Part shown: piece after piece, positions 1-19,336 of the stretch
How positions within the stretch are numbered: position 1 is the first letter of the stretch
Layout of the letters: each line of letters starts with the position of its first letter
Origin: Geobacter sp.
Lineage (GTDB): Bacteria > Desulfobacterota > Desulfuromonadia > Geobacterales > Geobacteraceae
DNA length: 33,193 bases
Reading direction: 5' to 3'
Assembly: GCA_027356255.1 (NCBI GenBank)
Contig: DAIEGL010000063.1
Location: 1-33,193, forward strand
Made by a program: the position numbers and the translations under genes
The notes under the pieces: model-generated
What the model was told of the DNA's origin: nothing
The model's input: only the letters and a program-made list of their open reading frames with translations
The model's database searches: none

Positions 1-524
1 AGCAGATCATGGTTGTAAATCCTGTGCACATAAGGCAGCCAAATGTGTCCTTCATAGATATACTCGTTCAGAAAAAAGAGATGCACCGAATATCCGCCGT
101 ACTTCAAGGTCCGGTTTACCTCGGAGAAAAACATGTCATGGTCATTCACATGCTCAACAACCTGGTTTGAAATGACGATGTCGAACTGCCCATCCCCGTA
201 TGGCCAGGGATCACCGTCCGAAATCGACGCAATCCGCTCTTCCCAGGGTATCCCGGGACAGCGCGATGACAGATTGCAGATTGCCTTGCTTAAAAAACCG
301 TCCTGCTGCACACCATGGTCATGCACATCGAAACCATGAATCTGCCAATCAATGGTCGGGTTCAGCTTTGGCAGATTATTCGTCAGATACGTTATCAGCT
401 TACCGTCTCCACAACCGACATCCAACAGGTGGACTGTCTGATGGTCGGCAAAACGGCCGAGCTCCGTGTTGATGATACTGAGCAGATGTTCGTGAGTGGT
501 ATGTTCGGCCTTGTCAAGACTCAT
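1..524 (-). CDS. SAM-dependent methyltransferase, class I (3' end outside window)
   Basis: Reading the minus strand from an ATG at 524 gives an open frame of about 174 codons with no stop before the window edge, so the C-terminus is missing. The translation shows a Rossmann motif I (LLDVGCGDGKL, around residues 32-42) and a later block with FDIVISNQVVEHV followed by LKYGGY, typical of class I methyltransferases of the Methyltransf_11/23 type. The start overlaps the end of the upstream polymerase gene by 11 bases and has a GGTGG stretch just before it, which indicates translational coupling. Position at the end of a polysaccharide operon suggests it modifies a sugar or lipid intermediate, but the substrate cannot be read from the sequence. 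The family call is firm; the role is inferred. Confidence 0.8.
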   Translation of the reverse strand, partial: MSLDKAEHTTHEHLLSIINTELGRFADHQTVHLLDVGCGDGKLITYLTNNLPKLNPTIDWQIHGFDVHDHGVQQDGFLSKAICNLSSRCPGIPWEERIASISDGDPWPYGDGQFDIVISNQVVEHVNDHDMFFSEVNRTLKYGGYSVHLFFLNEYIYEGHIWLPYVHRIYNHDL

Positions 525-2980: not shown

Positions 2981-3016
2981 GCGCAATCGGTCGCTGGGGA
3001 CTCATTTCCGCATCCA

Positions 3017-4228
3017 TTAATTATTTTCCTTAATCGAGCGGCCGGCAGCGTACGCCTTCAATCTTTCGATCCGTTCCCGTTTCGCAGGGTCCAGGGAAAC
3101 CCTTTCCCGATACTCCAGGATAATCGCCGTAACGAATGAGATCAGCAAACCCAGAAGTGTGACACTTGCAACCAGGAAAACCCGCCTGGGTTTTACCTGT
3201 TTCTCCGGAGGGGCGGCTTTATCAACGACCTGGATGACCATCGCATCTTTTGCCTCATCGATCTTCGCCATTTCATACTGCTTAGCCATAAGTTCATAGA
3301 GCGTCTCCGAATATTTCAGGTTCCGCAATTTACGGACGTACCCGGTGCCTGCCTCGGGCATGCTCCCCGCGGACATGAAGGTATCCGGGTTCTTTCCCCC
3401 CTTTGCTTCGAGTTTCGAGAGCTGTTCTCTCATCCCCCGCAGCTGCTCTTCAATCTTCTGCAAATCCGGGTTCTTGGGAGTGGCGTACGACCTGAGCACC
3501 TTTAGTTCAACCTCTTTGGCCGCAATCTGCGCCCGCAACTGTGCTATTGATTCTATGATGGCCTTAGTTTGTTCCTTGATCTCAATGGCCCCCGTTTGCT
3601 CCTGGTATCCTTTCATCGATTCTTCTGCACGTATAAGAGCTTCTTTCGTATTTTTGAGCTGCTCTTCAAAAAAGAGCCGTCTTTGGGACGCCTCGGTAAC
3701 AGCGATATACTGGGTAAGGTTCCTCAGCTCCTCGACGAAAGCATTTGCCAATTCGGCGGACCTCGCCGGGTCCCTGTCCTCGACTCCGATGATGATCATG
3801 CCGCTCTTCTTCATATCCTGGATCGACAGCGCCTTCACCAAATTTTGTCGGGCGTCCTCGCGATAGGTTTCCCGGTACACCTTCATAAGGTTGAAGCGGT
3901 CTATCACGCGATCAAGCACGGCCCTGCTCTTCAACAAAGCGGCGTAGAGGTCACTGGTCGTCCGCACACCACCGCTCAGGACGTTGGGCAAAGCTGCCAA
4001 ACCCATCTGGCTCTGTACCTGGAGAGACAGGCTTTGACTGCCCTGCTGCGGCAGCAGAACCTTCGTTTCAGCCAGGTATTTTTTCGGGAGGAACATGCTG
4101 ATAATAACGATTGCTGCGAAACAGGACACCGTGATAAGCGTGATGAGTCTTTTCCACTTCATCACGAAGATCAGATAATCCAGGGCGGTAACACCTTCTT
4201 TTGGCGGTTGTGCCTTGTGCTGCTCCAT
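3017..4228 (-). CDS. Chain-length determinant / polysaccharide co-polymerase (Wzz family)
   Basis: A 403-residue protein with the two-membrane-segment architecture of polysaccharide co-polymerases: an N-terminal segment at about residues 29-48 preceded by LDYLIFVMKWKR, a long periplasmic part with coiled-coil stretches (about 160-260), and a C-terminal membrane segment preceded by the proline-rich block APPEKQVKPRR. These proteins sit in the inner membrane and set the length of polymers made by Wzy. No Walker A or tyrosine-rich tail follows the second membrane segment, so it lacks the fused kinase of Wzc-type proteins. A strong Shine-Dalgarno (AGGAGG) precedes the ATG, and it starts only 12 bases after the export gene, so the two are almost certainly co-translated. 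Confidence 0.87.
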   Translation of the reverse strand: MEQHKAQPPKEGVTALDYLIFVMKWKRLITLITVSCFAAIVIISMFLPKKYLAETKVLLPQQGSQSLSLQVQSQMGLAALPNVLSGGVRTTSDLYAALLKSRAVLDRVIDRFNLMKVYRETYREDARQNLVKALSIQDMKKSGMIIIGVEDRDPARSAELANAFVEELRNLTQYIAVTEASQRRLFFEEQLKNTKEALIRAEESMKGYQEQTGAIEIKEQTKAIIESIAQLRAQIAAKEVELKVLRSYATPKNPDLQKIEEQLRGMREQLSKLEAKGGKNPDTFMSAGSMPEAGTGYVRKLRNLKYSETLYELMAKQYEMAKIDEAKDAMVIQVVDKAAPPEKQVKPRRVFLVASVTLLGLLISFVTAIILEYRERVSLDPAKRERIERLKAYAAGRSIKENN

Positions 4229-4240
4229 AGGCTTCCTCCT

Positions 4241-6400
4241 CTAACGAACAACGAGCAATACGCCCGCTGTCACGGCAATCTGGTAGAGGATCTGCGTAAT
4301 GTCCTTGATATTACGCAGCCAGCCGACACGTTCCAGCTTCTCCGGAACGACAATGGTATCTCCTGAATTCAGGTGGTCTCCGAATCCGAGGAAGCTTCCT
4401 CCGGCCTTGACCGCAGTGCCATTCGCCTGCAGGATGTAGGAGTTACCCTCGTCCGCATTTGACGTATACCCCCCCGCAAGCTCCACGTAGTAGTCGTATT
4501 GCTCTCCCGCATCGTATACAAAGGCACTCTGGTTGTATACCGAGCCGATGACCTGCACGGTCCTGGGGTCTGAAGGCACCGAAATGGAATCGCCCTGATC
4601 AAGCTCGATGTCGTACGCGGACCCCCGGAAAGTAGCCAGATCCGACAGTCGCAACGCTATTCGGCCCTTTGCCTTGGCCGTCTTGAGCTGCTCTATAAAC
4701 TGCCTTTTCTGCTCCAGTTCCATCTGGACCATACGAGCATCGTCCGGGCTGGTCGCGGTGGCGATCTGCGAGGTGCCGGAGCCGAGAAGTTCCCGCTCAA
4801 GCCGTTCGGCCATTTCATCGATCTGTTTCTGCTGCTGCGCACGCACCCTCTCCCTGGTGAAGACCGACCCGCGCAGGTACGCACGCGCCGTAAACCCTCC
4901 CGCCCGTTCGATGAGCGACGAAAGCGTCTCCCCCCTCTTGATCGTATAGGTCCCGGGAAATCTCACCTCTCCGCTGATGGTCGCAGTGCGGTAGAGATTC
5001 CATTCGGGAACGGTACGCACGAAGAGATAATCGTTCATCTGCAAGGGGACATTGTTGGCGGGATCGCCTTCCAGCGCCTTGGCAAGGTCGATGACGAACA
5101 TCTCGGTCTTTGGCCCTGCCTGGGTCACCGTTATTCGCGTCATCTCTGCCTGATTCGATGTATAGTAGAGCAGCCCGCCTGCAAGGGAGATGACATCCTT
5201 CACCCTTGTCACGCCGGGGTTGACGCCGAAATTGCCCGGATGGGCGACCGCACCGGCAATAGTGACGGTATTCGCCGTATCGGCGACCGTAAATATCTTT
5301 GCCAGGTCGCCGTCCTGAAGGACAAAATTCTTTTCCGGGTTTTTCTCGATGTCTATCAGGTCCCCTTCGAACAAGGTCCTGAATTGATGGTCCTGGATTC
5401 GCTGCATCTGCACCCGCCCCGTGAATGCGATACCGGTGATGCCGCCGGCCATATGGACAAGATCGAGGAGGCGGGTCTCACCCTTAAGCTCATAGATCGC
5501 CGGAGTCTTGACGTTTCCCGCAATCCCCGCAAGCGGCCCCGCCGGCGGGATAAAGATCACGTCCTCCGGCAGGAGGCGGATATCCTTGGTCTTGTCCCCC
5601 TGCAACAGGAAGTCGTAGAGATCGAAGGTGACCACGGTCCTGCCGTTTCTCTTCACCTGGATATTCCTCATGGAGCCGGTCTTGGAAGGGCCGCCGCTCT
5701 CGAACAGGGCGTTAATGATGGTCGAAAGCGAAGATATGGTGTAAGCCCCCGGCCACTGGGCATTCCCCACGACGTAGACCGTGATCGACCTGAGCTGCCC
5801 CATGCTCACGTTCATTTCAAAGCCTGTATAATATTTGGAAAGCTCCTTCTGGAGGACCTCTTTCAGCTCTCTGAAGGTCAGTCCCGTTACGCCGAGAACG
5901 CCGATCTTCGGCAGGATTATCTTGCCGTCATTGTCCACAGAGACATGCCAGCTCCTCTCGATCTTTCCCCATACCTCGATTCTGATAGTGTCGCCGGGGC
6001 CGACGACATAATCGGGACCTACCGGCACATGCTGGGCAGGCGCGAACGTGGAAGGAGGCTTCTCGAACAAATCATAGCCGAACTGCTTGATATCGAGCGA
6101 TGTCGATGCTGAAACCTTACCGGAGATATACTTCTCAAACTCGGACATCCCGTCTTTCGCAAGCGGTGCCTTGTTGGCAGTGTTTTCAGAGTTTTTTCCC
6201 CATCCTTGAGAAGACGCTGCCTCCGTAGCGACTGAACGGGAGAGATCTGATTCCACACGATCACCCTGATGCGGGACAGGCTTGGCAGTTGGAGTAATTG
6301 AAGCCGAGGCGCCACCATCTCCTGCAATAGCAAAGGGTATGCTGTAAAGAAGGGATATGAGGGCGAATATTATGACGACGATCTTGTTTTGTCTTTTCAT
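4241..6400 (-). CDS. Outer-membrane polysaccharide export protein with several SLBB domains (Wza-like OPX)
   Basis: A 719-residue exported protein. A signal peptide ends near residue 26 (PFAIAG) with no lipobox cysteine, followed by a low-complexity stretch, then the Poly_export domain beginning at YVVGPGDTIRIEVWG (about residue 130). After it come repeated SLBB-like units, recognisable by G.V..PG.Y.........L...AGG patterns near residues 210, 295, 380, 480 and 615. A hydrophobic C-terminal segment (QIAVTAGVLLVV) could cross the membrane, as the Wza helix does. It is nearly twice the length of E. coli Wza, within the range of the multi-SLBB long forms. It is the first gene of the polysaccharide operon. 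The start at 6400 has no good ribosome-binding site, and a small inverted repeat (6411-6425, ATTCAT/ATGAAT) lies just upstream of the ATG. Confidence 0.87.
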   Translation of the reverse strand: MKRQNKIVVIIFALISLLYSIPFAIAGDGGASASITPTAKPVPHQGDRVESDLSRSVATEAASSQGWGKNSENTANKAPLAKDGMSEFEKYISGKVSASTSLDIKQFGYDLFEKPPSTFAPAQHVPVGPDYVVGPGDTIRIEVWGKIERSWHVSVDNDGKIILPKIGVLGVTGLTFRELKEVLQKELSKYYTGFEMNVSMGQLRSITVYVVGNAQWPGAYTISSLSTIINALFESGGPSKTGSMRNIQVKRNGRTVVTFDLYDFLLQGDKTKDIRLLPEDVIFIPPAGPLAGIAGNVKTPAIYELKGETRLLDLVHMAGGITGIAFTGRVQMQRIQDHQFRTLFEGDLIDIEKNPEKNFVLQDGDLAKIFTVADTANTVTIAGAVAHPGNFGVNPGVTRVKDVISLAGGLLYYTSNQAEMTRITVTQAGPKTEMFVIDLAKALEGDPANNVPLQMNDYLFVRTVPEWNLYRTATISGEVRFPGTYTIKRGETLSSLIERAGGFTARAYLRGSVFTRERVRAQQQKQIDEMAERLERELLGSGTSQIATATSPDDARMVQMELEQKRQFIEQLKTAKAKGRIALRLSDLATFRGSAYDIELDQGDSISVPSDPRTVQVIGSVYNQSAFVYDAGEQYDYYVELAGGYTSNADEGNSYILQANGTAVKAGGSFLGFGDHLNSGDTIVVPEKLERVGWLRNIKDITQILYQIAVTAGVLLVVR

Positions 6401-6586: not shown

Positions 6587-9500
6587 CTACCAGTTACCCA
6601 CAATCGGTGTCGCGCCGACAAATCCGAATACAGCCATGGCATCCGTCGGCACACCATCCCAGACTCCGTTGCCATTAAAGTCCAGATACCATGTGGCATT
6701 GTCATAGACGCCGATCTTGGTAGCGCCGCTACCGCTCCAGTTACCCGTTACGGGAATGGCGCCGGCAATGCCGAAGTAGTAGGCTTTATCGGTCGGAGTA
6801 CCATCCCAGATACCATTGCCGTTATAGTCCAGATACCACGTGGTGGTGGCAGGGTCATAGACGCCGATCTTGGTAATACCACTACCGCTCCAGTCCCCTG
6901 TTACGGGAATACCGCCGGCAATGCCGAAGTAGTATGCTTTATCGGTTGGAACCCCGTCCCAGATGCCATTGCCATTGTAGTCCAGATACCACGTGGTGGT
7001 AGCAGGGTCATAGACACCGACCTTGCTAGTACCGCTTCCGTTCCAATCGCCAGTTACGGGATTGGTACCTGCATAGCCGAAATAGTAAGTTACATTGTCG
7101 GCGCCCATGGTGCCGTAGCCGTGCATGTCAAGTATCCAGGTGCCGTCGTTGAACACGCCGATCTTGCTCTGGCCACCACCATTCCAATCGCCGCTCACCG
7201 GAACGTCGCCCGGCGCCCCAAAAGTGTAGTTCTTGTCGATCCCTGGATCCCACACTCTATTGCCGTTTGCGTCGAGATACCATTGGCTGCCCCCCTGGAA
7301 AACGCCAACACGGTCATTGGGTTTGAAGACAACCGGCCGCATCATGTCGTTTTCTTCATGACCAAGGAGATGGCAGTGCCAAACATATTCCCACCCGAAG
7401 CTGGTCGTCTGGTTGGTGACGGTCATCGGATTACCGGTATAAGGATCAATTCCGGTGAACTGTGTCGTGGTACCGAGCGGCATCGTCACGTCCAGCGGTC
7501 GGACGCTGTCGGGAACCGGAAACGGTATAGGCGGTGTCGTTGCCTTAAACGCGACAACGATATCCTCCAGCGGGTTCATTCTGACGGTGTCCTTCCACCC
7601 CAGTTCGTTGGCGTCGGGCGGCCTTATGGCCCCGTCCCAGCCGACCCTGTTGATCACCTGCACGTCGTACAGGTGGAAGTGAATGGCATGGGTATCGACA
7701 CCGTTATGGGTGATTTTCCACAACTGGGGTCTGTTGGGAGTAACCTGTTCGGTAGGGGGATCTATGTACCCCAGAGGGATCGTCGTCTGGATCAGGGCGG
7801 TGGTAAACGGCAGCTCTGTCCCGAGCGTGGCGTTCATCCGTCCGTAATCCTTCGTGAACAACTCCTGAATAGTCTTCGACTGCATCGGCATCGTTAGCGG
7901 GGCGGCTGCGCCGACCGGGGTGAAGGTGAGGGAGGTGTCCTGTATCCTTGAGTACGTATCGGCGGCCGCGGAGTAGGGCCCAGGGTACGTGGTCTGCGGC
8001 ACTACCGGCGGAGGCTGCACGGCGGCGTAAATGGTCGGCCAGGCAGCGTTCATCGGCGCGGGATTGAACGGGACTGGGGCTCCCGCCGCTACCCGGATCT
8101 GCATGATGGTGCGGGTATTCGGGCCGTAGCCGGCTTTGGTGGAGGGGGCGCCACCCATCCAGGTGTTGTCGGGGCATCCCGTGTAGTAGTCGTTGCGTGG
8201 ATCGAAGGCAGGCACGGGAGCCGGTGCGTCGTTGTAAAGGATGAGTGTCTTGCCGGCATACTGGGAGAAGTCGATAATGACGTCGGCCCGCTCAGCCGGC
8301 CCTAGGAAGAGGGTCTTGCTGGTGACGTTCAGGACCACGATATTCCGGCGGTTGTACTCGTAGTCGACCGGCTGGTTGGGAAGCACCACCGGCTGCGGCA
8401 GAAGCCCTCCTTCCGTCCCTATCTGGATCATCGACGGACCCGCCAGGGCCGGATCGGGCACACCGCCAGCCCGCGAGTCGGTCGGCCAGGTTGCTGGGAA
8501 ACAACCTGCCGGGGTAAAGGCACCGCTGCAAACGCAGTTCGTCGTGACCGTTGCGCTGCAGGCCGGCCTTGGGACCGCAGCAACCATCTTGACTTCCTTC
8601 TGATAACCGGGATTCGGCAGGCCGGTGACCGGATCGAACGGGCTTATGGTAGGATCGGCCTGATACAGCTGGAGGTTCCACATCCGGTCATTGGCCGCGT
8701 TCAGGATGCGGAACCGGTACGTCTGCGGCTGCACGTCGATGTACGGGTACGCCGTACCGTTGACCACCGGTGTATCCATGAAGCCTTCAGGCACGCCGGA
8801 CACGTTGAATGTCGGCAGGCCGGGAAACTGGACCGGGAATACCGGCCAGAACCAGGGACCGTAGTCCCACCTGCCGAAGTTGTTCGCGCCGCTCAGATCA
8901 GGGTTGGTCGGCCACTGGTTCGTCTCATACACATGGGGGAACCAGAGATCGCCGTAAGTCCCCCATTTGGGGTTGGTCCACTTTGCATCCTGGACAGCCA
9001 CGTCCTGGGGGACGAAGGTCTTGTCCTGAATGACCAATGGGATAAGGTGCGCCAGATCGTTATTTGCCGTATCCGCCATATTGGCCGGATTACGGATAGT
9101 CCCGGGAACGCCCGTGGCGGCCAGCGCCGTTTCTTCCGTCGGATCAACGATCAAGTAACCGGCGGCCTCGCCGGCATACACGTCAAGGCGTGTAATCCCA
9201 TATGAGTGGTCATGGAAGAACATCAACCGGTCGCTTTGGTTGTTGGTCCAGAAAAATGTAGACACGCCGGCCGGCTCGACCCCGCCGTCCATGTCGGGAA
9301 CATTTTGCTGACTCACCCCTTTCGTATAGATTGTGCTGGTTTCCCCGGCCGGGGTGACCCACTGGTGTGGGGTCCCGTCGCTGATCCAGGGAGAATGTCC
9401 GCCATGGAGATGGAGGGTGGCACGGTTCTCCGTGTAGGCATTCATGCCGTCTGGCCCCATCCCCGCTCCCATGTACGTGGGGTCCATGGGGATGAAGAGA

Positions 9501-10069
9501 TCGCCCGCGCCGTTAACGCCGAGCTCGTTGAAGAATTTGATGCGCACCGGCCTGTTCTTCTGGGCAATTATCAGAGGCCCCAGGTACTGCGAAGTATGGT
9601 CCGTGCCGTTTTTCTGGTAATACCCTCTGATCTTCGTCCCGATACCCGCTGCATCCGTGGTGAGAGGGAGGTCCGAATGCATCCGAACCCGAAAATCGCG
9701 CACACCTACCTCGTAATAATCCGAGCCGCTGTATTTTGCCGTATCAGGTGATGCAACGGGGATATACTGGCCGAGAAGGTTTGCGTTCGTTGGGCCGAGC
9801 CCCGGGAGTTTGTCGACAAACTTCCGGAGTGGGGTCCCGGAATTGCTGGAAGCACTGCTGTAAGTCCCCATGGCGTTTCTGTACTTCCATGGGCCTGCCG
9901 GACTGTTGGCGTAAAATGTGCCGCCGCTTGGCGTCGCCGACGCCGGGTAGTCGGGCGGAGGCGACGTCGCCAGAGTTCCCGGCCCTGCGTGGGCAGGTTT
10001 GATAGCCAAACAAAGGGCAGCTATTGCGAATACCAGACTAGCAATTATTATAAATTCCCGCCTGACCAT
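6587..10069 (-). CDS. Secreted multicopper oxidase with five C-terminal aspartate/glycine-rich repeats
   Basis: A protein of about 1160 residues: a Sec-type signal peptide ending KPAHA|GPG, a large oxidase region, then about 240 residues of tandem repeats. All four copper motifs are intact: HLHGG (near codon 230 of the longer frame), HDHSYG (297), HAIHFH (804) and HCHLLGHEENDM (908), giving the three type 1 ligands, an axial Met and the trinuclear-site histidines. It is clearly paralogous to the 2077-residue MCO at 13103-19336 and belongs with Geobacter OmpB/OmpC-like proteins linked to metal-oxide reduction; the substrate is unknown. I prefer the ATG at 10069 because a perfect AAAGGAGG lies 6 bases upstream. 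An in-frame ATG at 10102 also has a GGAGG and would add 11 residues including RRNFM. It is the last gene of the operon behind the riboswitch. Confidence 0.9.
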   Translation of the reverse strand: MVRREFIIIASLVFAIAALCLAIKPAHAGPGTLATSPPPDYPASATPSGGTFYANSPAGPWKYRNAMGTYSSASSNSGTPLRKFVDKLPGLGPTNANLLGQYIPVASPDTAKYSGSDYYEVGVRDFRVRMHSDLPLTTDAAGIGTKIRGYYQKNGTDHTSQYLGPLIIAQKNRPVRIKFFNELGVNGAGDLFIPMDPTYMGAGMGPDGMNAYTENRATLHLHGGHSPWISDGTPHQWVTPAGETSTIYTKGVSQQNVPDMDGGVEPAGVSTFFWTNNQSDRLMFFHDHSYGITRLDVYAGEAAGYLIVDPTEETALAATGVPGTIRNPANMADTANNDLAHLIPLVIQDKTFVPQDVAVQDAKWTNPKWGTYGDLWFPHVYETNQWPTNPDLSGANNFGRWDYGPWFWPVFPVQFPGLPTFNVSGVPEGFMDTPVVNGTAYPYIDVQPQTYRFRILNAANDRMWNLQLYQADPTISPFDPVTGLPNPGYQKEVKMVAAVPRPACSATVTTNCVCSGAFTPAGCFPATWPTDSRAGGVPDPALAGPSMIQIGTEGGLLPQPVVLPNQPVDYEYNRRNIVVLNVTSKTLFLGPAERADVIIDFSQYAGKTLILYNDAPAPVPAFDPRNDYYTGCPDNTWMGGAPSTKAGYGPNTRTIMQIRVAAGAPVPFNPAPMNAAWPTIYAAVQPPPVVPQTTYPGPYSAAADTYSRIQDTSLTFTPVGAAAPLTMPMQSKTIQELFTKDYGRMNATLGTELPFTTALIQTTIPLGYIDPPTEQVTPNRPQLWKITHNGVDTHAIHFHLYDVQVINRVGWDGAIRPPDANELGWKDTVRMNPLEDIVVAFKATTPPIPFPVPDSVRPLDVTMPLGTTTQFTGIDPYTGNPMTVTNQTTSFGWEYVWHCHLLGHEENDMMRPVVFKPNDRVGVFQGGSQWYLDANGNRVWDPGIDKNYTFGAPGDVPVSGDWNGGGQSKIGVFNDGTWILDMHGYGTMGADNVTYYFGYAGTNPVTGDWNGSGTSKVGVYDPATTTWYLDYNGNGIWDGVPTDKAYYFGIAGGIPVTGDWSGSGITKIGVYDPATTTWYLDYNGNGIWDGTPTDKAYYFGIAGAIPVTGNWSGSGATKIGVYDNATWYLDFNGNGVWDGVPTDAMAVFGFVGATPIVGNW
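6590..7320 (-). repeat. Five tandem ~145-base in-frame repeats at the 3' end of the MCO gene
   Basis: Each unit encodes about 48 residues of the form IGVYD..TTWYLDYNGNG, then WDG.PTDKAYYFG.AG and P.TGDW.GSG. The D-x-N-x-N-G-x-x-D-G core resembles calcium-binding loops, and the GDW.G.G.TKIGVY core resembles FG-GAP/VCBS-like repeats. The central copies are nearly identical at the DNA level, while the outer ones have diverged, which points to recent unit duplication. Boundaries are approximate. Confidence 0.85.
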
Positions 10070-10141
10070 AAAATTCCTCCTTTGAATTGCTGTGTTTTTC
10101 ATCGTATTCCCTCCGCGAGCCGATCTTCGTCCTTACCGTGA

Positions 10142-10429: not shown

Positions 10430-12187
10430 TCACTTGATGGCGAGGAGCTCTACCTCCACAAGGATCGTTTCATTCGGACCGACAGGCGATCCGATGACAC
10501 TGCTCCGTCCCCGCTCTCCGTATGCAAGCTGCGGGGGAATGAAGAGCTGCCATGCGGAACCCACCGGCATGAGTTTCAACGCCTGGCTCAGACCAGGGAT
10601 GCCCCCTCCTTCGCGAACACTGAAAGTTACCGGCCGGCCGGGATAGGACCGGTCAAACTCGGCTCCATTCAAAAGGGTACCGCGGTAGTTGCAAACGACG
10701 AGGTCTGCATCTGTGGGCGTCCTGCCGTCACCAGCCTTAAGGATCTTGTACTGCAACCCGCTTGGAAGAGAGATCACCCCCTCCTTCGTTTTGTTTTCTG
10801 ACAAGAATGCCAGTCCTTCTTTAGCTGCCACGAGGGGGGCCATCTTCTGCTTCCGCCTCACCTCGGCCTGAACGGCGATCATGGTTTTTCGAAGTTCTTC
10901 ATCGGTCATAAGAAGCTTTCCGCCCGAAAGCGCGTCCTTCATCCCCTGGACCACGACATCCAGATCGATCGCCATCCCCTGCTGCTTGAAGTTCCTGACA
11001 ATACTGACCCCGATACTGTAATTAACCCTGTCCTCCCTAGTCTTGAGAACCAGCGGCTCCCCGGCGAAGACCTCTGCAGCCAGGAGCACAACGCCCAGGA
11101 CCACCAGCCATTTAAGCGACATCATCCCTCCTTTGCGAGAAAAGTCCGGGTTGGTCGTGTCCACTCCCATGTTCATACCGACCGGCAGTTCCTGCGTCAG
11201 TCTGGCGGCAAACCGGCCCAGGAATAAGGAGGCATACAGCACGACGATCAGATACGGCATCGAAGTCTTGCCTGTCAGGATGAAGGCAATAACGCCGAAT
11301 ACCACCGTCAATGCCCAAAACAGGAGTACCACGTAAACGGGGGGGATGTTTTTTCCTACGATCAGGTAATGCAGGTGAAGGGCATCACCCTGAAACGGGT
11401 TTCTCCCCTTCATAAGCCTCGAGAACAACACCCGGAGCGTGTCGAATATGGGGATGAGAAGCACAAGTACAGGAAACATCGCATCCACTGAAGAACCCGC
11501 CCCCTGCGTCAGGAATACGGCCGTGAGGGCAAGAGAAAAACCGATAAAGACGCTTCCCGAGTCCCCCATGAAGATCCTGGCATTGGGAAAGTTGTACAGG
11601 AGAAATGCGGCCAGCGCTCCCACGAAGGTGAAGCAGAGCAGAGCAACCATGACGTTTACCGAGAGGACTGCGGCAATCCCCATGAACATGAATCCCAGGA
11701 GCGAGACCCCCCCTGCCAGGCCGTCGAGACCGTCGAGGAGGTTGACAGCGTTCGTTATGCCGATGATGCTGATGTAGGTGAAGGGGATACTGAACCAGCC
11801 GAGGTCAATCCTCCCCAGGGAACCGTAGGTCCCGATATGATGAATGGTAATATTCCCTCCGAATATGACTATCGTGGCGGCCGCCGCCATCCCGGCAAAC
11901 TTCGTTTTCCATCCAAGCGACTTAAGATCGTCTATTGCCCCCATGCCGACCAGGAGAAACGATGCGAGGATGTAAGATGTCAGTGCACCGCTTCCGTTTT
12001 CGGCAAACAGGAACGGCAGTACGCCGGCAAAGAATGCCAGCCCACCCCACCGCGGGGTTATCTTCTTGTGTTGCCGCCGTCCGCCCGGTATGTCCAGGCA
12101 GTTGCATAGGCAGGCAAAGCGGATGACCAGCGGTGTGACAGCGGCGGTAATCAGGAACGAGACAAGACAGGGAAAGAAGAATTTCAT
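10430..12187 (-). CDS. WecA-like undecaprenyl-phosphate sugar-1-phosphate transferase in one open frame with an FKBP prolyl isomerase
   Basis: One open frame of about 585 residues. The first ~345 residues are a multi-pass MraY/WecA-family enzyme, which links a sugar-1-phosphate to undecaprenyl phosphate at the inner membrane: HKKITPRWGG, AIDDLKSLGWKTK, NAVNLLDGLDGLAGG and FMGDSGS are present. The usual C-terminal HLHH-type motif reads HLHY. The rest starts MMSLKWLVVLGVVLLAAEVFAG, an evident signal peptide, followed by a Mip/FkpA-like helical dimerisation region and an FKBP domain (NYRGTLLNGAEFDRSY, IPPQLAYGERG). Just before that internal Met pair is a perfect AAAGGAGG, so the FKBP may be made as its own exported protein. 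I chose the ATG at 12187; a TTG at 12205 extends the frame by six codons. It is the first gene behind the riboswitch. Both domain calls are firm; true fusion versus two genes is open. Confidence 0.8.
   Translation of the reverse strand: MKFFFPCLVSFLITAAVTPLVIRFACLCNCLDIPGGRRQHKKITPRWGGLAFFAGVLPFLFAENGSGALTSYILASFLLVGMGAIDDLKSLGWKTKFAGMAAAATIVIFGGNITIHHIGTYGSLGRIDLGWFSIPFTYISIIGITNAVNLLDGLDGLAGGVSLLGFMFMGIAAVLSVNVMVALLCFTFVGALAAFLLYNFPNARIFMGDSGSVFIGFSLALTAVFLTQGAGSSVDAMFPVLVLLIPIFDTLRVLFSRLMKGRNPFQGDALHLHYLIVGKNIPPVYVVLLFWALTVVFGVIAFILTGKTSMPYLIVVLYASLFLGRFAARLTQELPVGMNMGVDTTNPDFSRKGGMMSLKWLVVLGVVLLAAEVFAGEPLVLKTREDRVNYSIGVSIVRNFKQQGMAIDLDVVVQGMKDALSGGKLLMTDEELRKTMIAVQAEVRRKQKMAPLVAAKEGLAFLSENKTKEGVISLPSGLQYKILKAGDGRTPTDADLVVCNYRGTLLNGAEFDRSYPGRPVTFSVREGGGIPGLSQALKLMPVGSAWQLFIPPQLAYGERGRSSVIGSPVGPNETILVEVELLAIK
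11120..11134 (-). promoter_or_regulatory. Internal ribosome-binding site and start for the FKBP domain
   Basis: On the minus strand AAAGGAGGG (11134-11126) is followed at once by ATGATG. The second ATG (11122) is four bases from GGAGG and opens a 230-residue product with a proper signal peptide. The +1 frame closes with TAA ten bases after this ATG, the kind of overlap expected if the upstream gene originally ended there. Confidence 0.6.
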
Positions 12188-12246
12188 AATGCGCCCCCCT
12201 TTCAAAACCGCAGAGATCGTTCCCGCGGCAGCATGATCTCCAAATC

Positions 12247-12420: not shown

Positions 12421-12448
12421 AAAAAAAAGCGCGGCATGAAGCCGCGCT
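12421..12448 (-). terminator. Intrinsic terminator of the dockerin-MCO/lipoprotein operon
   Basis: AGCGCGGC pairs with GCCGCGCT around a 5-base loop, followed on the minus strand by a run of eight T. It lies about 35 bases past the lipoprotein stop. The hairpin is the same, save one loop base, as the one after tyrS at 19844-19880. Confidence 0.9.
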
Positions 12449-12482: not shown

Positions 12483-13052
12483 CTATTGATAGGTTGTCGC
12501 AAAACTGATCTTGCAGCCGGGCGAAAGAGTCACGTCGTGGACCAGGAGCACCTCCTGGCTGACCGTGGGAACGAGATCTTCTTCCGGCATCATGGACGGG
12601 GTCCCCCCCGGAGTAGCCAGTGAAAAGTTTATCATCGCTATTTCCGTTCCCTTCCCCCCGTTGGCGGTCGAGCTGCTCTTCAAGGGCAGCCTGCCGTTAT
12701 TTACCATCCTGACGGTCAATACTCTGCCGGCAATGTCGTACGTGCTTGCACTGAAGTCGGATGGAGAAACCTGGACCGGACCGGACGGCACGACAACCCC
12801 CTTGCGCAGGGTACAGAGGCCGGATGTGGCGCCCGGCACCGATGAATAGTTCAACATCACCCCGCTTGGCACATTCATCGTAGTTTGTACGGTTGCGACA
12901 ATCTTATCGGCGGAAGTAATGTTGCCGAACAGATATACCTTGGTGACCGCTTTTGTCGCGGGAGAAGAGCCCCCCCCCCCTCCTCCGCCGCACCCGGCCA
13001 GCGCCAAAACTGAGAAGAGCCCCGTCACCGCTGTCAGAATATACCGTTTCAT
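12483..13052 (-). CDS. Small lipoprotein with a cohesin-like beta domain (tentative)
   Basis: About 189 residues from the ATG at 13052, which has GGAGG ten bases upstream; an upstream in-frame start at 13097 gives no sensible signal peptide. The N-terminus (MKRYILTAVTGLFSVLALAGC) is a lipoprotein signal with lipobox LAGC, followed by seven glycines and then about 160 residues of alternating hydrophobic pattern. The pattern (ATVQTTMNVPSGVMLN near the start, later GRVLTVRMVN, then EIAMINFSLA) resembles the cohesin-like lipoproteins common in Geobacter, but this is a visual judgement. It follows 50 bases after an MCO that ends in a dockerin-like segment, so a cohesin-dockerin partnership at the cell surface is attractive. 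The glycine run is encoded by a tract of eleven G, so the frame is prone to slippage. Confidence 0.6.
   Translation of the reverse strand: MKRYILTAVTGLFSVLALAGCGGGGGGGSSPATKAVTKVYLFGNITSADKIVATVQTTMNVPSGVMLNYSSVPGATSGLCTLRKGVVVPSGPVQVSPSDFSASTYDIAGRVLTVRMVNNGRLPLKSSSTANGGKGTEIAMINFSLATPGGTPSMMPEEDLVPTVSQEVLLVHDVTLSPGCKISFATTYQ
12970..12980 (-). repeat. Eleven-G homopolymer inside the lipoprotein coding sequence
   Basis: Eleven consecutive C on the plus strand (G on the coding strand) lie a few codons after the lipobox cysteine. A gain or loss of one base would shift the frame and truncate the protein just after its lipid anchor. It could be a contingency tract or merely a convenient glycine linker. 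Confidence 0.9.
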
Positions 13053-13102
13053 ATTTAAAAGTCCTCCCATGTATCGCCCATCCCTGCGGGGCGGCATTAT
13101 TT

Positions 13103-16100
13103 CTAAAAATTGGCGATGAGACCCACCGTACGAAGCATGATTGCATAGACGTCCATGAGATCTATCTTGCCGTCCGGCTGAGAAGCCCCGTTGACGAATG
13201 GCGCCACGTCAGCATGGACCATGTCCAGCGGGGACGGTGCCATCAGACCGCCGGCTATCCGCAGTGACTTCAGGGCACTGGCCAGATAGCTGCTGGTGCC
13301 CGGCAACAGGCCGTCCTTGGTGCCGAGAAGGATTGAGGCTGTGACCGGCGGGTAAAGATTTCCGTCGGGCAGTGACTTGTCACGGAACCGCACATAGACG
13401 GTCTTCAACCCTTCGGCCGCATCGAAAGTCCATGCTTTGGATGTGGCATAAGGCTCCTCGGCGGTATAGTTGACCCCATCATTTGAAAACTGCATGGTGG
13501 CGACCCCGTAAGGATCGCCAGCGCTTATGGACAGGGTAACGGCAGGGACTTTCGAGAATATCGCACCGTTGTTGATCTGCACGCTGGTCGTCATATCATT
13601 GGCATGCATGGTCCAGGTCCCCGATTTGACCGATTCGGCATTGCCGGCGACATCCATCGCCAGGTATCTGACGGTCGTACTGACTCCGGGCACGTTGACC
13701 ACCGCTATCGGCGCAGCATAAACGGCAGAGGCAGTGGTCGGTGTGCTCCCGTCGGTGGTGTAGTAGATTTTACCGCACCCGACCCCCGCGTGGTCATTGC
13801 AGGCCAGGGTAACGGACACCGCGCCGTTGGAGTAAGTGCCGGGAATCGGGCTTGCGGTGGTATCCGGCGCCGTCGTGTCAAGGGTGATGCCGGCTGTTAT
13901 CGGGTCATAGAGAACACCCCCGTTGTGCGAATTGTCCCGGAAGCGCACATATACCGTTTTGAGCCCGTCCCCCGCTGCAAGTGTCCATGACTTGCCGGTG
14001 TTGTACGGTTCCTCCGCGGTATAGGTTACGCCGTCGTTGGAGAACTGCATGGTGGCAACCCCCAGTGGGTCAACGGCGCTCAGGTTCAGGGTCACATCAG
14101 CGCTGTTGGTGAACGCCGCGCCATTGTTGATTTTCATGCCGGCCGTCATGTCCGGGACGTGGATGGCCCAGGTTCCGGCCTTGACAGCCTCGGCATTGCC
14201 GGCAGTGTCGACGGCAAAGTATTTTATGGTAACGGTTCCGGTAACGACTATCGGGGCGGTGTACACCGCCGAGGAGATCGTCGGTGTGGTCCCGTCGGTG
14301 GTGTAGTAAATGGTTGCAGCTTCGTCGGCAGAAAGTGTCACCAATACCGGTGCGCTGGAATAGGTGCCCGGGATGGGGCCCGCAGTTGTGACGGGCGAAG
14401 TGGTATCCAGCATGATGTTGGCAACAACCGGCGGATAGAGGTTGCCGGCTGGCAAAGACTGGTCGCGGAACCGGGCATAGACGGTCTTTATCCCGTCGCC
14501 GGATGCAAGGGCCCATGATTTGGTGGTCGAAAAGGGCTCCTCGGCGCTATAGTTGACCCCGTCGTTGGAGAACTGCATAGAGGCTACGCCCACCGGATCA
14601 ACGGCGGTCAGAGTCAGAGTGACGGCCGGCGAATTGGTGAGGGTCGCACCGGTGTTGATGTTCACGCTCGACACCATATCCGCGGCATGAACGGCCCAGG
14701 TGCCGGAGTTGACCATTTCGACATTGCCGGCGGTATCGACGGCAAAGTACTTGATGGTGGTCGTTGCCGCTACAGAAATCGGCGCGGTGTACTTTAGAGA
14801 CGACGTGGTCGGCGCGCTCCCGTCTATGGTGCAGTAAATCGTCGCCGGTTCATTGGCGGCCAGGGTCACGGACACCGGGACAGCAGAGTAAACGCCGGCG
14901 AGCGGTCCGGCTGTGGTCACCGGTGGCGTGGTATCGAGGGTTATGCCTGCCGTGATCGGGGCATAGAGGTTGCCGGTCGGAAGGGTCTTGTCACGGAACC
15001 TGACGTATACGGATTTGGCGCCGTCACCCGCAGCGAGGGTCCAGGGCTTGACGGTTGCGTATGGCTCTTCGGCGCTCCAGTTTACGCCATCGTTCGAAAA
15101 CTGCATTGAAGCAACACCCACGGGGTCGGTAGCGCTCAGGTCCAAGGTAACGGCTGTGGTGTTGGTCACAGCAGCGCCGTTGTTTATCTGGACCCTTGCA
15201 GCCAAATCCTGGGTGTGAATGATCCAGGTCCCGGACTTGACCGCTTCCGTGTTGCCGGCGGAATCAACGGCAAAGAAGTTGATGGTGGTGCTTGCACCTG
15301 CAATATTTGTCACCGGTATCGGTGCAATATAGACGGCAGAGGCCGTGGTCGGGATGCTCCCGTCAGTGGTATAGTAAATGATCGCCGGCTTGTCCGCCGT
15401 CAGGGTCACGTTGACCGGCCCGGTGGAATAGACGCCGGGGATCGGGCTGGCCGTGGTTGTCGGGATCAGCGAGTCGAGGGTGATGCTGGCCGTGACCGGC
15501 GGATAGAGGAAGCCATTGGGTAGAGACTTGTCGCGGAAGCGGACAAAAACCGTCTTCAGCCCGCCGCCGGGGGCAAGGGTCCATGCCTTGGTGGATGCGA
15601 ACGGCTCTTCCGCCGTGTAGGTGATCCCGTCGTTGGAGAACTGCATGGTGGCGACACCCGACGGGTCCACGGCGCTCAGGGACAAGATGACGTTGGCATT
15701 GTTGGTAACCGTTGCCCCGTTGTTGATCTTGACGCTGGCGACAATGTCCGCACTGTGGATATACCATGTGTCTGAATGCACCGCTTCGGCAGCGCCGTTG
15801 ACATCGACGGCGAAATAATTGATGGTGGTGGTGGCATTCACGACTATCGGCACAGTGTACTTGGGAGAAGCCGTGGTCGGCAGACTCCCGTCCGTGGTGT
15901 AATAAATGGTTGCCGGTGGAGCGAGCGTGGAGGCGGTAAGGGTAACCGTCACCGGCGGAGTTGTGTAAATGCCGGGGACAGGGGCGGCAACCGTTACGGG
16001 TGGATTGGGCGGCGGTATGACCTGATACGATAAGGATGTAGTCGCATCATAAACCACGTTCGAACTGGTCCGCACGTCGACGGTGATCGTGTAGCTGCCC

Positions 16101-19100
16101 ACAGGGGTGCTGTCAGGCAATGCCCACGAAGAGCCGAAACCATAATCCTGCACCATCACGTTGCCGGCGCCGCTGTTCAGCCAAAACCGGTACTGGTAAG
16201 CGGGGGTGGTGTTGGGAACCGTGGTGGTGGCGCCCGTACCGAGTGCGGTAAACTGAACGTTCGTACCGACAACGTGCGGGGTCGGCTTGCCCGGGGTGAC
16301 GGTCAGGCCGGTGGCCGCGGTCCAGGTGCCTGTCGATACGGTCGCGATATTCGATGCCGGTGAATCGCCTTTTGTGTTGAAGGCAAAGATACGGTACGAA
16401 TAGGTCGTGCCCGGGGCAATCGACGTGTCGGTGTACATGGGGGGATAGCCAGGCAGGAAAGACATGGTCGCCATGGTCTGGTAAGCTCCGCCGCCCACAG
16501 AGCGCTCTACCCGGAAACTGCTCGGGGTTGTGGTCGAGCCATCCGTCCATTGAAGAACGACCTGGTTGACGGCGGGATTGACGTAAGATGTGACGTAGGA
16601 CGGCTTGCCCGGTACAGTCGTCCCCCCCGGGTAGGCGTTAAGCCCTGCAGGCGCCGGGGGTACTGTTTGGGAAATGGAAAAGACCAACGGACGCATGAAG
16701 TCGTTCTCTTCATGGCCAAGGATATGGCAGTGCCAGACATACTCATAACCGTAGTCATACCCTTGAGGATCGCCGACCGGAACGTTGGGAACGGTACCCG
16801 CCACTGCAGTTGCCGGGGTTGGGAACAGAGTGGTGGCAATCTGGGCCGTAGCCGGCATCGTCGGATCGATCGGACGCTTGCTCACCGGCAGCGGCAAACC
16901 GTTGTTGTCGGGATTCAAGGCCGTCCAGGTACTGGGAAGCGTCTGGCTCTTGGGGAGTAGCGCAACAATCACATCCTCCAGCGGGTTCATCCTGATGGTT
17001 TCCTTCCATCCGATCTCGTTCGGGTCCGGTGGCCGTATGGCACCGTCCCAGCCGACCCGGTTGATCAGCTGAACATTGACCATGTGGAAGTGAACCGGGT
17101 GGGTGTCAACGCCATTATGGGTGATCTTCCATATCTGGGGCTGACCGTCGATGATCGACTCGGTGACCGGCTCGGCGTATCCCATGGGGACAGTGGTCTG
17201 GGTCAGGTTATTGGTGAACGGCAGTTCGACCCCCAGGGTAGCATTCATCCGCCCATACGGGTCCCACAACTCCTGGATGGCCTTGGGTTGGAACGGGATG
17301 GTCGTCGGCACGGTCGACCCGATGGGATTAAAGGTAAAGGAGTAGTCCTGTATTTTGGCATAAAGATCGGTAGGGGCATTCCCGCCGGAAGCGGCCGGAT
17401 AGGTCGCCTGGGGCACGATCGGGGCCGGCTGGGTAGCCTTGAAGGCGGCCGGCAATGCTGCCTGCAACGCCCCCATATTGAATGGGGTGGAGGGTGCTCC
17501 CGCTACCCGGAATTGCATGATGGTGCGCATGTTGGGGCCGTAGCCGCGCAGGGTCGATGGAGCGCCGCCGCCTGCTGTCTGGTCAGGGTCACCCGTGAAA
17601 TAGTCATAGCGCGAATCGAACGCCGGATTTGGCGCCGGCCCGTCATTGTACAGGATGAGCGTAGAGCCGGGGGGGACCTGTGAAAAGTCGATAATGACGT
17701 CCGCCCGTTCCGCCGGCGCCAAAAAGAGCGCATGGGTCGAGACATTCAGCACGACGATGTTCCGGCGGTTGTACTCATAGCCGAGCGGTACCGGTGGGAT
17801 GAGCACCGGCGCCGGCAGGAAGCCCCCCTCGGAGCCGATCTGAATCATGCTGGGGCCCGCCAGGGTGGGATCAGGAACACCGCCAGTCCTGCCGTCCGTT
17901 GGCCAGGTGGGGGGGAAGGTCGGATTCGGCCCGGCTGGGACCATTTTCACTTCTTTGCCGGAAGGATCGGAAGGGTCGGCGTAAAACAGGCTGAGGTTGA
18001 AAGTACGGTCGTTACTGGCGTTGAGGATGCGGAAACGGTACGGCTTCGGTTCCACCGTAATGTATGGGTAGGCGGTGCCATTGATGACCGGGGTGTCCAT
18101 GAAGGCTTCCGGTGTGACAGACGGATCGGGAAGCGTCTGTTTTGCCGGATCCGTGATTGCAACCGGGGGCCAGAACCATGGGCCGTAGTCCCATCTGCCA
18201 AACGGATTTGCCCCATCTGGGTTTTTGGGGTCCTGGTTGGGCTCGTACACGTGGGGAAACCAGAGATCGCCGTAGCCCCCCCAGTTCGGGTTGGTCCATT
18301 TGGAATCCTGCACGGCTATGTTCTGGGGCACGAAGGTCTTGTCCTGGATGATCAGGGGGATGCCGTATTTGTATTCCGGGTGGCCGGCATTCACCATGTC
18401 CTGGCCGGGGATGACGCCGGAGGCGATCAGCCCGTCCTCGGCCGGGTCCGTGAGCAGGTAACCGGCAGCCTCGCCGGCATAGACGTTGAGGCGGGTGATC
18501 CCGTAGGAGTGGTCATGGTAGAACATCAGCCTGTTACTCTGCTGGTTGGTCCAGAAGAACGTCAAGGAACCATCGCCGCTGGCCGGCATGTCAGGTACGT
18601 CCTTCGCGGACACACCTTTTCTCATTTGAAATGGAACCGACGTCTCTCCGACAGGAGCGGTCCATTGATGTGGGGTACCGTCGCTGATCCAGGGCGAATT
18701 GCCGCCATGAAGATGGAGGGTGGCGCGGTTTTCCGTGTACATGGCACACGCGGCTCCCGGAGCGCCCGGATCACACGCCCCCCCAGCCGCGGTGTACGGC
18801 CCCATACCCGCCCCCATGACCGTGGTATCCACCGGGATGAAGAGGTTACCCGCTGCGCCGGTGGGGAGCATGTTCGTGAACTTTACGCGCACCGGCCTGT
18901 CTTGCTGGGCTATGATCAGAGGCCCCAGGTATTGGGTAGACATGTTCGCAAAGGCAGGGTTCAAATCCCTGTACCCCCGCAGCCTGGTTTTTTTGGGCAA
19001 GTCGGAATGCATCTTCTCGGAATACTCGACCAGCCCGATTTCGTAATAATCACCATCGTTGGGAACGCCCGCACGTCCCGTTATCGGCGCTGCAATGGGG

Positions 19101-19336
19101 ATGTACTGACCGAGGTTGTTTGCATTGCACGCCGCAGGCGTGCTGCACCCGGGAAGCCCAAGCCCCGGCAGTGAATCGACAAACTTTCTGAGCGCGATCC
19201 CGGAAGCCCCCCCTGCCGGGCTGTTTGCGTAATAGGTCCCGCCCCCCGGTCCGGCGTGGGCCGGTTCGATGCGCCAGGGGATGGTCATAAGCGCCAACAA
19301 CAAATAGAATACCCTCCAGTAATTACACCTATCCAT
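13103..19336 (-). CDS. Giant OmpB-like multicopper oxidase with Fn3, five large repeats and a dockerin-like C-terminus
   Basis: A 2077-residue secreted protein. A signal peptide ends EPAHA|GPG. The oxidase part (to about residue 890) has all four copper motifs: HLHGGN (about 208), HDHSYG (about 273), HPVHFH (about 748) and HCHILGHEENDFM (about 869). Next come a fibronectin type III domain (about 893-1000), another beta-sandwich segment (about 1003-1110), five repeats of about 178 residues (1111-2007), each a chitobiase C-terminal-like domain (ATIYYTTDGS.PT) plus an Ig-like unit (MQFSNDGV.Y.AEEP), and a dockerin-like tail with SLRIAGGL and DGKIDLMDVYAIMLRTVGL. Fn3 after four copper sites matches what is known of G. 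sulfurreducens OmpB, a T2SS-dependent protein needed for insoluble Fe(III) reduction. The start has GAGGTG upstream. It lies between a small secreted protein and a lipoprotein in one operon. Confidence 0.9.
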   Translation of the reverse strand: MDRCNYWRVFYLLLALMTIPWRIEPAHAGPGGGTYYANSPAGGASGIALRKFVDSLPGLGLPGCSTPAACNANNLGQYIPIAAPITGRAGVPNDGDYYEIGLVEYSEKMHSDLPKKTRLRGYRDLNPAFANMSTQYLGPLIIAQQDRPVRVKFTNMLPTGAAGNLFIPVDTTVMGAGMGPYTAAGGACDPGAPGAACAMYTENRATLHLHGGNSPWISDGTPHQWTAPVGETSVPFQMRKGVSAKDVPDMPASGDGSLTFFWTNQQSNRLMFYHDHSYGITRLNVYAGEAAGYLLTDPAEDGLIASGVIPGQDMVNAGHPEYKYGIPLIIQDKTFVPQNIAVQDSKWTNPNWGGYGDLWFPHVYEPNQDPKNPDGANPFGRWDYGPWFWPPVAITDPAKQTLPDPSVTPEAFMDTPVINGTAYPYITVEPKPYRFRILNASNDRTFNLSLFYADPSDPSGKEVKMVPAGPNPTFPPTWPTDGRTGGVPDPTLAGPSMIQIGSEGGFLPAPVLIPPVPLGYEYNRRNIVVLNVSTHALFLAPAERADVIIDFSQVPPGSTLILYNDGPAPNPAFDSRYDYFTGDPDQTAGGGAPSTLRGYGPNMRTIMQFRVAGAPSTPFNMGALQAALPAAFKATQPAPIVPQATYPAASGGNAPTDLYAKIQDYSFTFNPIGSTVPTTIPFQPKAIQELWDPYGRMNATLGVELPFTNNLTQTTVPMGYAEPVTESIIDGQPQIWKITHNGVDTHPVHFHMVNVQLINRVGWDGAIRPPDPNEIGWKETIRMNPLEDVIVALLPKSQTLPSTWTALNPDNNGLPLPVSKRPIDPTMPATAQIATTLFPTPATAVAGTVPNVPVGDPQGYDYGYEYVWHCHILGHEENDFMRPLVFSISQTVPPAPAGLNAYPGGTTVPGKPSYVTSYVNPAVNQVVLQWTDGSTTTPSSFRVERSVGGGAYQTMATMSFLPGYPPMYTDTSIAPGTTYSYRIFAFNTKGDSPASNIATVSTGTWTAATGLTVTPGKPTPHVVGTNVQFTALGTGATTTVPNTTPAYQYRFWLNSGAGNVMVQDYGFGSSWALPDSTPVGSYTITVDVRTSSNVVYDATTSLSYQVIPPPNPPVTVAAPVPGIYTTPPVTVTLTASTLAPPATIYYTTDGSLPTTASPKYTVPIVVNATTTINYFAVDVNGAAEAVHSDTWYIHSADIVASVKINNGATVTNNANVILSLSAVDPSGVATMQFSNDGITYTAEEPFASTKAWTLAPGGGLKTVFVRFRDKSLPNGFLYPPVTASITLDSLIPTTTASPIPGVYSTGPVNVTLTADKPAIIYYTTDGSIPTTASAVYIAPIPVTNIAGASTTINFFAVDSAGNTEAVKSGTWIIHTQDLAARVQINNGAAVTNTTAVTLDLSATDPVGVASMQFSNDGVNWSAEEPYATVKPWTLAAGDGAKSVYVRFRDKTLPTGNLYAPITAGITLDTTPPVTTAGPLAGVYSAVPVSVTLAANEPATIYCTIDGSAPTTSSLKYTAPISVAATTTIKYFAVDTAGNVEMVNSGTWAVHAADMVSSVNINTGATLTNSPAVTLTLTAVDPVGVASMQFSNDGVNYSAEEPFSTTKSWALASGDGIKTVYARFRDQSLPAGNLYPPVVANIMLDTTSPVTTAGPIPGTYSSAPVLVTLSADEAATIYYTTDGTTPTISSAVYTAPIVVTGTVTIKYFAVDTAGNAEAVKAGTWAIHVPDMTAGMKINNGAAFTNSADVTLNLSAVDPLGVATMQFSNDGVTYTAEEPYNTGKSWTLAAGDGLKTVYVRFRDNSHNGGVLYDPITAGITLDTTAPDTTASPIPGTYSNGAVSVTLACNDHAGVGCGKIYYTTDGSTPTTASAVYAAPIAVVNVPGVSTTVRYLAMDVAGNAESVKSGTWTMHANDMTTSVQINNGAIFSKVPAVTLSISAGDPYGVATMQFSNDGVNYTAEEPYATSKAWTFDAAEGLKTVYVRFRDKSLPDGNLYPPVTASILLGTKDGLLPGTSSYLASALKSLRIAGGLMAPSPLDMVHADVAPFVNGASQPDGKIDLMDVYAIMLRTVGLIANF
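13315..16003 (-). repeat. Five ~530-base in-frame repeats in the OmpB-like gene
   Basis: Five units start near 16003, 15465, 14930, 14393 and 13868 on the minus strand. Each encodes TT..PIPG.YS..PV.VTL, YYTTDGS.PTT, YFAVD.AGN.E.V.SGTW, then INNGA, MQFSNDGV and KTVYVRFRD. The third copy has IYCTIDGS instead of IYYTTDGS; the fifth carries a short insert with two cysteines (CNDHAGVGCGK). Copies have diverged enough that the array is probably old. Confidence 0.9.

Follow-up and report, generated by a model that had tools for sequence, protein, structure and literature searches.

A lipoprotein with a predicted cohesin fold beside a dockerin-ended multicopper oxidase in Geobacter: a putative surface anchor and one of many such gene pairs in the Geobacterales

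The closest described relatives of the gene pair analysed here are the type I and type II cohesin–dockerin pairs of cellulosomes (Clostridium thermocellum CipA, Acetivibrio, Ruminococcus), in which both modules have the same fold as in our pair and in which, likewise, the dockerin is C-terminal on a secreted enzyme while a cohesin provides surface anchoring (as in OlpA/OlpC). In known examples, cohesins and dockerins engage in stable docking and not in transient contact. However, the Geobacter pair departs from the cellulosomal arrangement in belonging to a Gram-negative organism, in having a lipid anchor in place of SLH or sortase attachment, in having a single cohesin per receptor and in carrying a multicopper oxidase (MCO) as cargo. 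The dockerin of this MCO has moreover lost the first calcium loop of cellulosomal dockerins and extended the second and, unlike the cellulosomal modules, neither the Geobacter cohesin nor the dockerin is reliably detected by Pfam profiles. The pair works like a one-cohesin cell-surface anchor and not like a cellulosome, although the anchoring itself is an inference.

Cohesins and dockerins outside cellulosomes are known in both archaea and bacteria (Peer et al. 2009, as cited in PMC9012536 and PMC5244752). As far as the accessible parts of the sources go, they have been reported from ANME and their partner sulfate reducers (PMC9012536, PMC10553843, PMC5244752), with adjacent cohesin and dockerin domains in the syntrophic sulfate reducers (PMC10553843). 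These cases resemble ours in a use unrelated to cellulose and in organisms with electron transfer outside the cell. However, the evidence in those reports is domain annotation, the functions they put forward are adhesion or the recognition of partners, and the portions available contain no lipoprotein cohesin combined with a dockerin-ended oxidase. Nor did the searchable literature, which did not cover the Peer et al. 2009 survey, yield any description, for the order Geobacterales, of cohesin receptors that are lipoproteins or of genes for such receptors paired with dockerin genes.

On the oxidase side, OmpB of G. sulfurreducens is needed for Fe(III) oxide reduction and, together with OmpC of the same species and MofA of Leptothrix, is an extracellular MCO with an Fn3 domain, as is the Geobacter protein described here (PMC5566968). 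MofB beside MofA also has a counterpart in a peptidyl-prolyl isomerase gene near the Geobacter MCO (PMC5566968). The latter differs from OmpB, OmpC and MofA in its long Ig repeats, its dockerin and its own receptor gene; the order's MCOs of about 1200–1450 aa have neither such repeats nor a dockerin with a receptor. In a soil metatranscriptome, Geobacter genes that encode dockerin, cupredoxin and laccase parts were highly expressed under Fe(III) reduction (PMC6199725), and these transcripts probably come from genes of the dockerin-MCO kind. That study noticed no receptor and linked the type-I dockerin genes to the breakdown of cellulose.

The window, by which we mean the whole stretch of DNA analysed, comprises 33,193 nucleotides of a Geobacter sp. 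contig. Its relevant features are as follows.

13103–19336, minus strand: gene for a secreted MCO of 2077 aa (Pfam Cu-oxidase_2, five CHB_HEX_C_1 matches and a weak fn3 match; four copper motifs).
16604–19249, minus strand: oxidase (cupredoxin) region of the MCO, used as an 882-aa query and conserved across the order.
13322–15979, minus strand: CHB_HEX_C/OmpL47-type beta-sandwich repeats, the putative spacer from oxidase to dockerin (Pfam and NCBIfam; limits approximate).
13109–13315, minus strand: dockerin module, MCO residues 2008–2076 (AlphaFold2 pLDDT 93.6, pTM 0.81; Foldseek and VIA).
13151–13210, minus strand: candidate second, extended calcium loop, residues 2043–2062, D-VAPFVNGASQP-DG-K-ID-LM-D (column conservation and alignment).
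12483–13052, minus strand: lipoprotein gene, 189 aa from its likely start (homologues begin MK(R/K)Y; GGAGG at 13063–13067).
12990–13052, minus strand: signal peptide and lipobox LAGC, with the codon of the cysteine predicted to be lipidated at 12990–12992 and Gly, not Asp, at +2 (read from the sequence).
12969–12989, minus strand: glycine linker of seven Gly residues (read from the sequence).
12486–12968, minus strand: cohesin-fold domain, 161 aa (AlphaFold2 pLDDT 67, pTM 0.67; best VIA match 1anu, Z 8.2).
12428–12448, minus strand: intrinsic-terminator-like hairpin and T run just 3' of the lipoprotein gene (8-pair stem with 7 G-C pairs, 7 T; consensus match only).

Both open reading frames are as an earlier sequence-only reading had described them, an MCO gene followed by a lipoprotein with a glycine linker. 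The MCO consists of an OmpB/MofA-like N-terminal oxidase, Fn3, five to six Ig repeats of the chitobiase-C/OmpL47 type and the C-terminal dockerin. All four copper-ligand motifs are present (HLHG at residue 208, HDH at 274, HPVHFH at 746 and HCHILGH at 869), Cu-oxidase_2 scores above the Pfam cut-off, fn3 is weak and under its own cut-off, and the oxidase part is 71–74% identical in homologues; with full copper motifs and the Fn3 architecture the product qualifies as an extracellular MCO of the OmpB/MofA type. The label 'OmpB-like' given to it earlier is thus apt for the oxidase part but does not extend to the whole protein, as most OmpB/OmpC-like MCOs of the order are of about 1200–1450 aa and lack a dockerin. 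The NCBIfam domain name OmpL47 had suggested a beta-barrel, a reading that we dropped, the segments being Ig-like repeats.

The surroundings of the gene merit brief description. A second MCO of 1171 aa (6587–10102, minus strand) ends not in a dockerin but in GDWNGSGTxKVGVYDPATTTWYLDYNGNGIWDG repeats, and an ending of this type is also found on the MCOs of several relatives (L137, L140 and L146). Between the two oxidase genes lies an ORF of 591 aa (10430–12205, minus strand) in which a WecA/MraY-like glycosyltransferase 4 domain and an FKBP peptidyl-prolyl isomerase are fused; L146 has a comparable fusion next to an MCO (6650–8701), and relatives with a dockerin-ended MCO have a small separate FKBP-like gene directly upstream of it, which recalls MofB beside MofA. 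An exopolysaccharide cluster (514–6400, minus strand), with a Wzy-like polymerase, an EpsF/Wzc-like chain-length protein and an SLBB/Poly_export protein, lies next to this pair of MCO genes.

The C-terminal segment of the MCO, previously called dockerin-like, was modelled by AlphaFold2 from the window's own module with 21 alignment rows and gave a confident fold of three helices (model residues 12–23, 31–37 and 55–65). The first 14 Foldseek matches in the PDB were all dockerins, with probability up to 0.98, as were all 22 rows of the VIA structural alignment (Z 9.2 to 5.4), so that the module meets the definition of a dockerin fold (three helices and two F-hand repeats in about 60–70 residues). 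Pfam left the window module unmatched, and Dockerin_1 was reached weakly by 6 of 15 family members (best 1.2e-5). The segment is not a chance resemblance, because a search with its profile finds such modules in 101 of the 141 genomes that represent the order. The consensus of the family is GD(L/I)xGDGxVDxxDALxALRIAxGL...GDVAPLVNGxPxPDGxIDxxDxxVILRxxVGL. In two relatives the two halves of the module are alike (DLAP..PDGVVDMADAL and DVAP..PDGVIDISDVL), which is the internally duplicated pattern that dockerins should show; the near-identical DxAP...PDGxxDxxDAL halves of these modules (L120, 5772–7853; L122, 8627–10168) are perhaps an ancestral form of the extended calcium loop.

Dockerins are characterized by a duplicated calcium loop of the form DxNxDGxINxxD. 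The sequence-only reading had noted that just one such loop is clear here and that the first half is degenerate, and column conservation, compared between 15 MCO-type and 37 other dockerins, bore this out as a conserved trait of the MCO clade. Among the 15 MCO-type modules, the acidic ligands are gone from the first loop (Leu at position 1 in 87%, Ser at position 12 in 100%); in the second, D, DG, I-D and D are retained at 87–100%, with an insertion between ligands one and two. In the other 37 the first loop is mostly intact (Asp 84% and 100%). The single clear loop, as far as the alignment can tell, is therefore a conserved subtype and not a product of decay, while any binding of calcium by it is an inference.

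The longest ORF for the lipoprotein spans 12483–13097 (minus strand, 204 aa), and the start is placed at 13052 because relatives begin MKRY and a GGAGG ribosome-binding site lies 10 nt upstream. The N-terminus reads MKRYIL...LAGC-GGGGGGG. In E. coli, a lipoprotein without Asp at +2 is sorted to the outer membrane, and the protein has the attributes expected of an outer-membrane lipoprotein (signal peptide, lipobox, Cys and no Asp at +2), although the membrane face is undetermined by sequence. A scan inside the end of the MCO gene gave only weaker, unconvincing terminator consensus matches; that a strong terminator-like hairpin follows the lipoprotein gene alone suggests that the MCO and the lipoprotein share one transcript.

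The AlphaFold2 model of the lipoprotein, built from ten alignment rows, is a beta sandwich in which residues 126–150 fall under 50 in pLDDT. Foldseek alone found no significant match for it (best E 0.089, to a cohesin). When Foldseek's 1000 best chains were realigned with VIA, rows 1–25 were all cohesins, as were 38 of the first 41; the best match, 1anu, aligned over 119 of 138 residues with an rmsd of 3.0, and unrelated beta sandwiches mostly ranked below the cohesins. Absence of a cohesin fold had been set beforehand as one of two findings that would refute the proposed pair, the other being a lack of binding, and this first refutation did not materialize. The fold required, a nine-strand flattened jelly-roll beta sandwich, is predicted by a model of moderate confidence, so that we regard the cohesin assignment as well supported within that limit. 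It was resolved by structure alone: searches of Pfam, NCBIfam and PDB sequences with the lipoprotein or its family profile gave no significant cohesin match, and Pfam Cohesin (PF00963) matched only 1 of 21 family lipoproteins, under the cut-off (E 0.0036). Matches to antibodies and galectin were dropped as low-complexity or weak.

In relatives the genes for the two modules travel together. A dockerin-ended MCO is followed by a cohesin-family lipoprotein in 16 of 16 examined cases with the oxidase visible, or 19 of 19 when three contig-end fragments are added, the lipoprotein gene lying on the same strand, directly downstream and usually within 100 bases. The 16 loci comprise 13 OmpB-like genes in Geobacterales, two MAG copies with broken frames whose cohesin lipoproteins are more generic (L118 and L119) and L151, which belongs to another MCO subfamily and whose partner lipoprotein has 399 aa and a cohesin at its C-terminus. 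Three pairings of MCO and dockerin look separate: that of the OmpB-like clade, that of L118/L119 and that of L151. By comparison, only one of 12 MCO homologues without a dockerin and with a visible C-terminus (L146) adjoins a gene of the lipoprotein family. In L108/L109 the dockerin and lipoprotein genes are in frame, and a read-through fusion is possible. Many relatives also have, just downstream of the lipoprotein, a secreted protein of about 430 aa (L127 704–1981, L129 454–1764, L132 6373–7656, L135 763–2082, L136 3–1316 and L110 10862–12148) with a Pfam Cohesin match in 4 of 5 scanned (E 9e-6 to 0.002), which passes the cut-off in L132 and L135. Judged from these matches, a second, more classical cohesin is present in the relatives' cluster; its gene is absent from the window.

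The association extends across the order. Dockerin modules, found by profile search, number one to 18 in each of the genomes that carry them, with four in the source genome. Cohesin lipoproteins occur in 90 of the 141 genomes and both modules in 89, so that 89 of 90 lipoprotein-carrying genomes have dockerins (Fisher p 6e-23), and counts per genome are correlated (Spearman 0.85; 0.74 within dockerin-carrying genomes). When loci were picked by dockerin alone, a cohesin lipoprotein lay within 1.7 kb downstream in 30–35 of 59, the lower figure being obtained with a lipoprotein profile made without those loci and the higher one otherwise, compared with 3 of 185 control genes, two of whose matches were trivial (one control was itself a lipoprotein gene, and the other was a broken MCO gene with its own dockerin downstream). 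The six-frame count is preferred here, as ORF-caller counts are low where lipoproteins are hidden by longer reverse-strand ORFs (as in L118). For about 40–50% of dockerin genes no cohesin lipoprotein is encoded alongside, and pairing is therefore not always by neighbourhood. Over 52 pairs, dockerin and cohesin distances were correlated (r 0.75), and shuffling partners within genomes lowered this to 0.51 (p 0.0014). Without the MCO clade the correlation was not significant under within-genome shuffling (p 0.09), and the within-genome signal therefore rests on that clade, in which MCO-type dockerins always occur with MCO-type cohesins (15 loci), even where the same genome has other pairs. The genomes are related, so that the p-values for co-occurrence and distance overstate independence.

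Our working hypothesis is that the two modules are a cognate pair by which a lipid-anchored lipoprotein holds the MCO at the cell surface. We consider this likely, since both folds, the gene pairing and the genome co-occurrence are supported by computation, while binding, calcium dependence and the outer face are inferred. The large MCO would be exported, its Ig-like repeats would space the oxidase head outward, and its C-terminal dockerin would plug into the cohesin domain of the lipoprotein encoded by the next gene of the same operon, which the lipidated cysteine and glycine linker would tether to the outer membrane; the oxidase would thus stay on the outside of the cell and not be lost by diffusion. 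Any calcium dependence is inferred to act via the second loop only; that the MCO takes part in the chemistry of metals or electrodes is inferred by analogy with OmpB (PMC5566968). The earlier proposal of a lipid-anchored cohesin for the MCO therefore stands as regards folds, near-perfect gene pairing and strong co-occurrence, and remains an inference as regards anchoring. Weighing against a cognate pair are the lack of binding data, the moderate cohesin model, the lost first-loop ligands and the possibility that the lipoproteins face the periplasm.

One rival idea is that the pair binds in the periplasm, where the lipoprotein would assist export or assembly, as a pilot or chaperone that holds the dockerin protein ahead of type II secretion, and would not be a surface anchor. 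The strict gene pairing and the folds fit either role, and the face to which an outer-membrane lipoprotein is sorted cannot be read from sequence. In its favour, G. sulfurreducens OmpB is secreted by an atypical type II system according to the title of Mehta 2006, listed in PMC5566968. Against it, cohesin–dockerin binding in the known examples is a stable docking and not a transient contact, and MCOs without a dockerin occur without an adjacent lipoprotein, so that export as such seems not to require one; we therefore think a periplasmic role unlikely.

It could also be argued that the real partner of the cohesin-fold lipoprotein is one or more of the other dockerins in the genome and that adjacency to the MCO reflects operon history, given that the source genome has only two family lipoproteins for its four dockerins and that some other genomes also have more dockerins than cohesins. 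The consistent matching of MCO-type modules at the 15 loci, despite other pairs in the same genomes, leads us to give this little credence. Weaker still, and hardly tenable in our opinion, is the suggestion of no binding at all, in which case the module would be a cap stabilised by calcium and the lipoprotein an Ig-fold protein that is unrelated and merely travels along: sequence similarity to the classical families is indeed weak and one calcium site has been lost, yet cohesin and dockerin folds were found independently in adjacent genes and the two families strongly co-occur.

The putative cognate pair of the window has many counterparts in the order, and the dockerin-bearing proteins are by no means only oxidases. 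Dockerin carriers sampled included, besides MCOs, NHL-propeller/Ig proteins, proteins with carboxypeptidase-regulatory-like repeats, lectin-fold/MBG/InlB-repeat proteins and Fn3 proteins, and a large multiheme cytochrome was encoded in the examined flank of 8 of 80 dockerin genes, sometimes beside NHL-propeller/Ig carriers. Receptors are either single-domain lipoproteins of 160–200 aa or longer ones of 380–450 aa whose cohesin is C-terminal. Modules of the same kind are also found beyond the order, in records from Nitrospirota, other deltaproteobacteria and Thiogranum, but the lipoprotein family is seldom met in the phylum at large. A cellulosome would call for a scaffoldin with several cohesins and a carbohydrate-binding module, together with glycoside hydrolases that bear dockerins. 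Cellulosome membership was rejected on the grounds of the single-cohesin lipoprotein and the non-hydrolase cargo, a judgement that covers sampled dockerin proteins only, without a whole-genome hydrolase screen.

Some loci show other arrangements. L114 and L077 have three tandem dockerin-ended genes with no cohesin lipoprotein nearby, and the partner must be elsewhere or lost. In L115 (10237–14326) two tandem dockerin genes are followed, about 600 bases past the second, by the gene for a lipoprotein of 279 aa whose C-terminal half is cohesin-like, and one receptor may serve several cargos there. Several dockerin matches, mostly in genomes of one genus (g17), contain one in-frame stop, TGA or TAG (among them G079:C82, G083:C52, G091:C150, G093:C29, G105:C234 and G113:C366); these could be errors, read-through or matches running past the gene end.

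The window pair may thus be one member of a Geobacterales-wide display in which dockerins on large secreted proteins meet single cohesins on small lipoproteins. We offer, as a proposition for which the chances seem to us evenly balanced, a lipid-anchored 'plug and socket' with up to about 18 dockerin-tagged giants per genome, many with a dedicated cohesin lipoprotein, forming a Gram-negative counterpart of the cellulosome surface that serves extracellular electron transfer and attachment and not cellulose degradation; the proposed cargo consists of oxidases, NHL-propeller proteins beside multiheme cytochromes, and lectin-like and Ig proteins. How Geobacter-type cells retain large, anchor-less exported redox proteins at their surface is poorly explained, and a specific, heritable and removable oxidase socket would make the question testable by deleting one small gene. 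As the family is nearly invisible to current profiles, many anchored extracellular proteins may have been read as free or cellulose-related. The small cohesin–dockerin pairs, of different types within a genome, are candidate orthogonal couplers for enzyme display on electroactive cells. With binding and the outer face inferred, this mode of display appears to be widespread in these metal-respiring bacteria but largely unnoticed.
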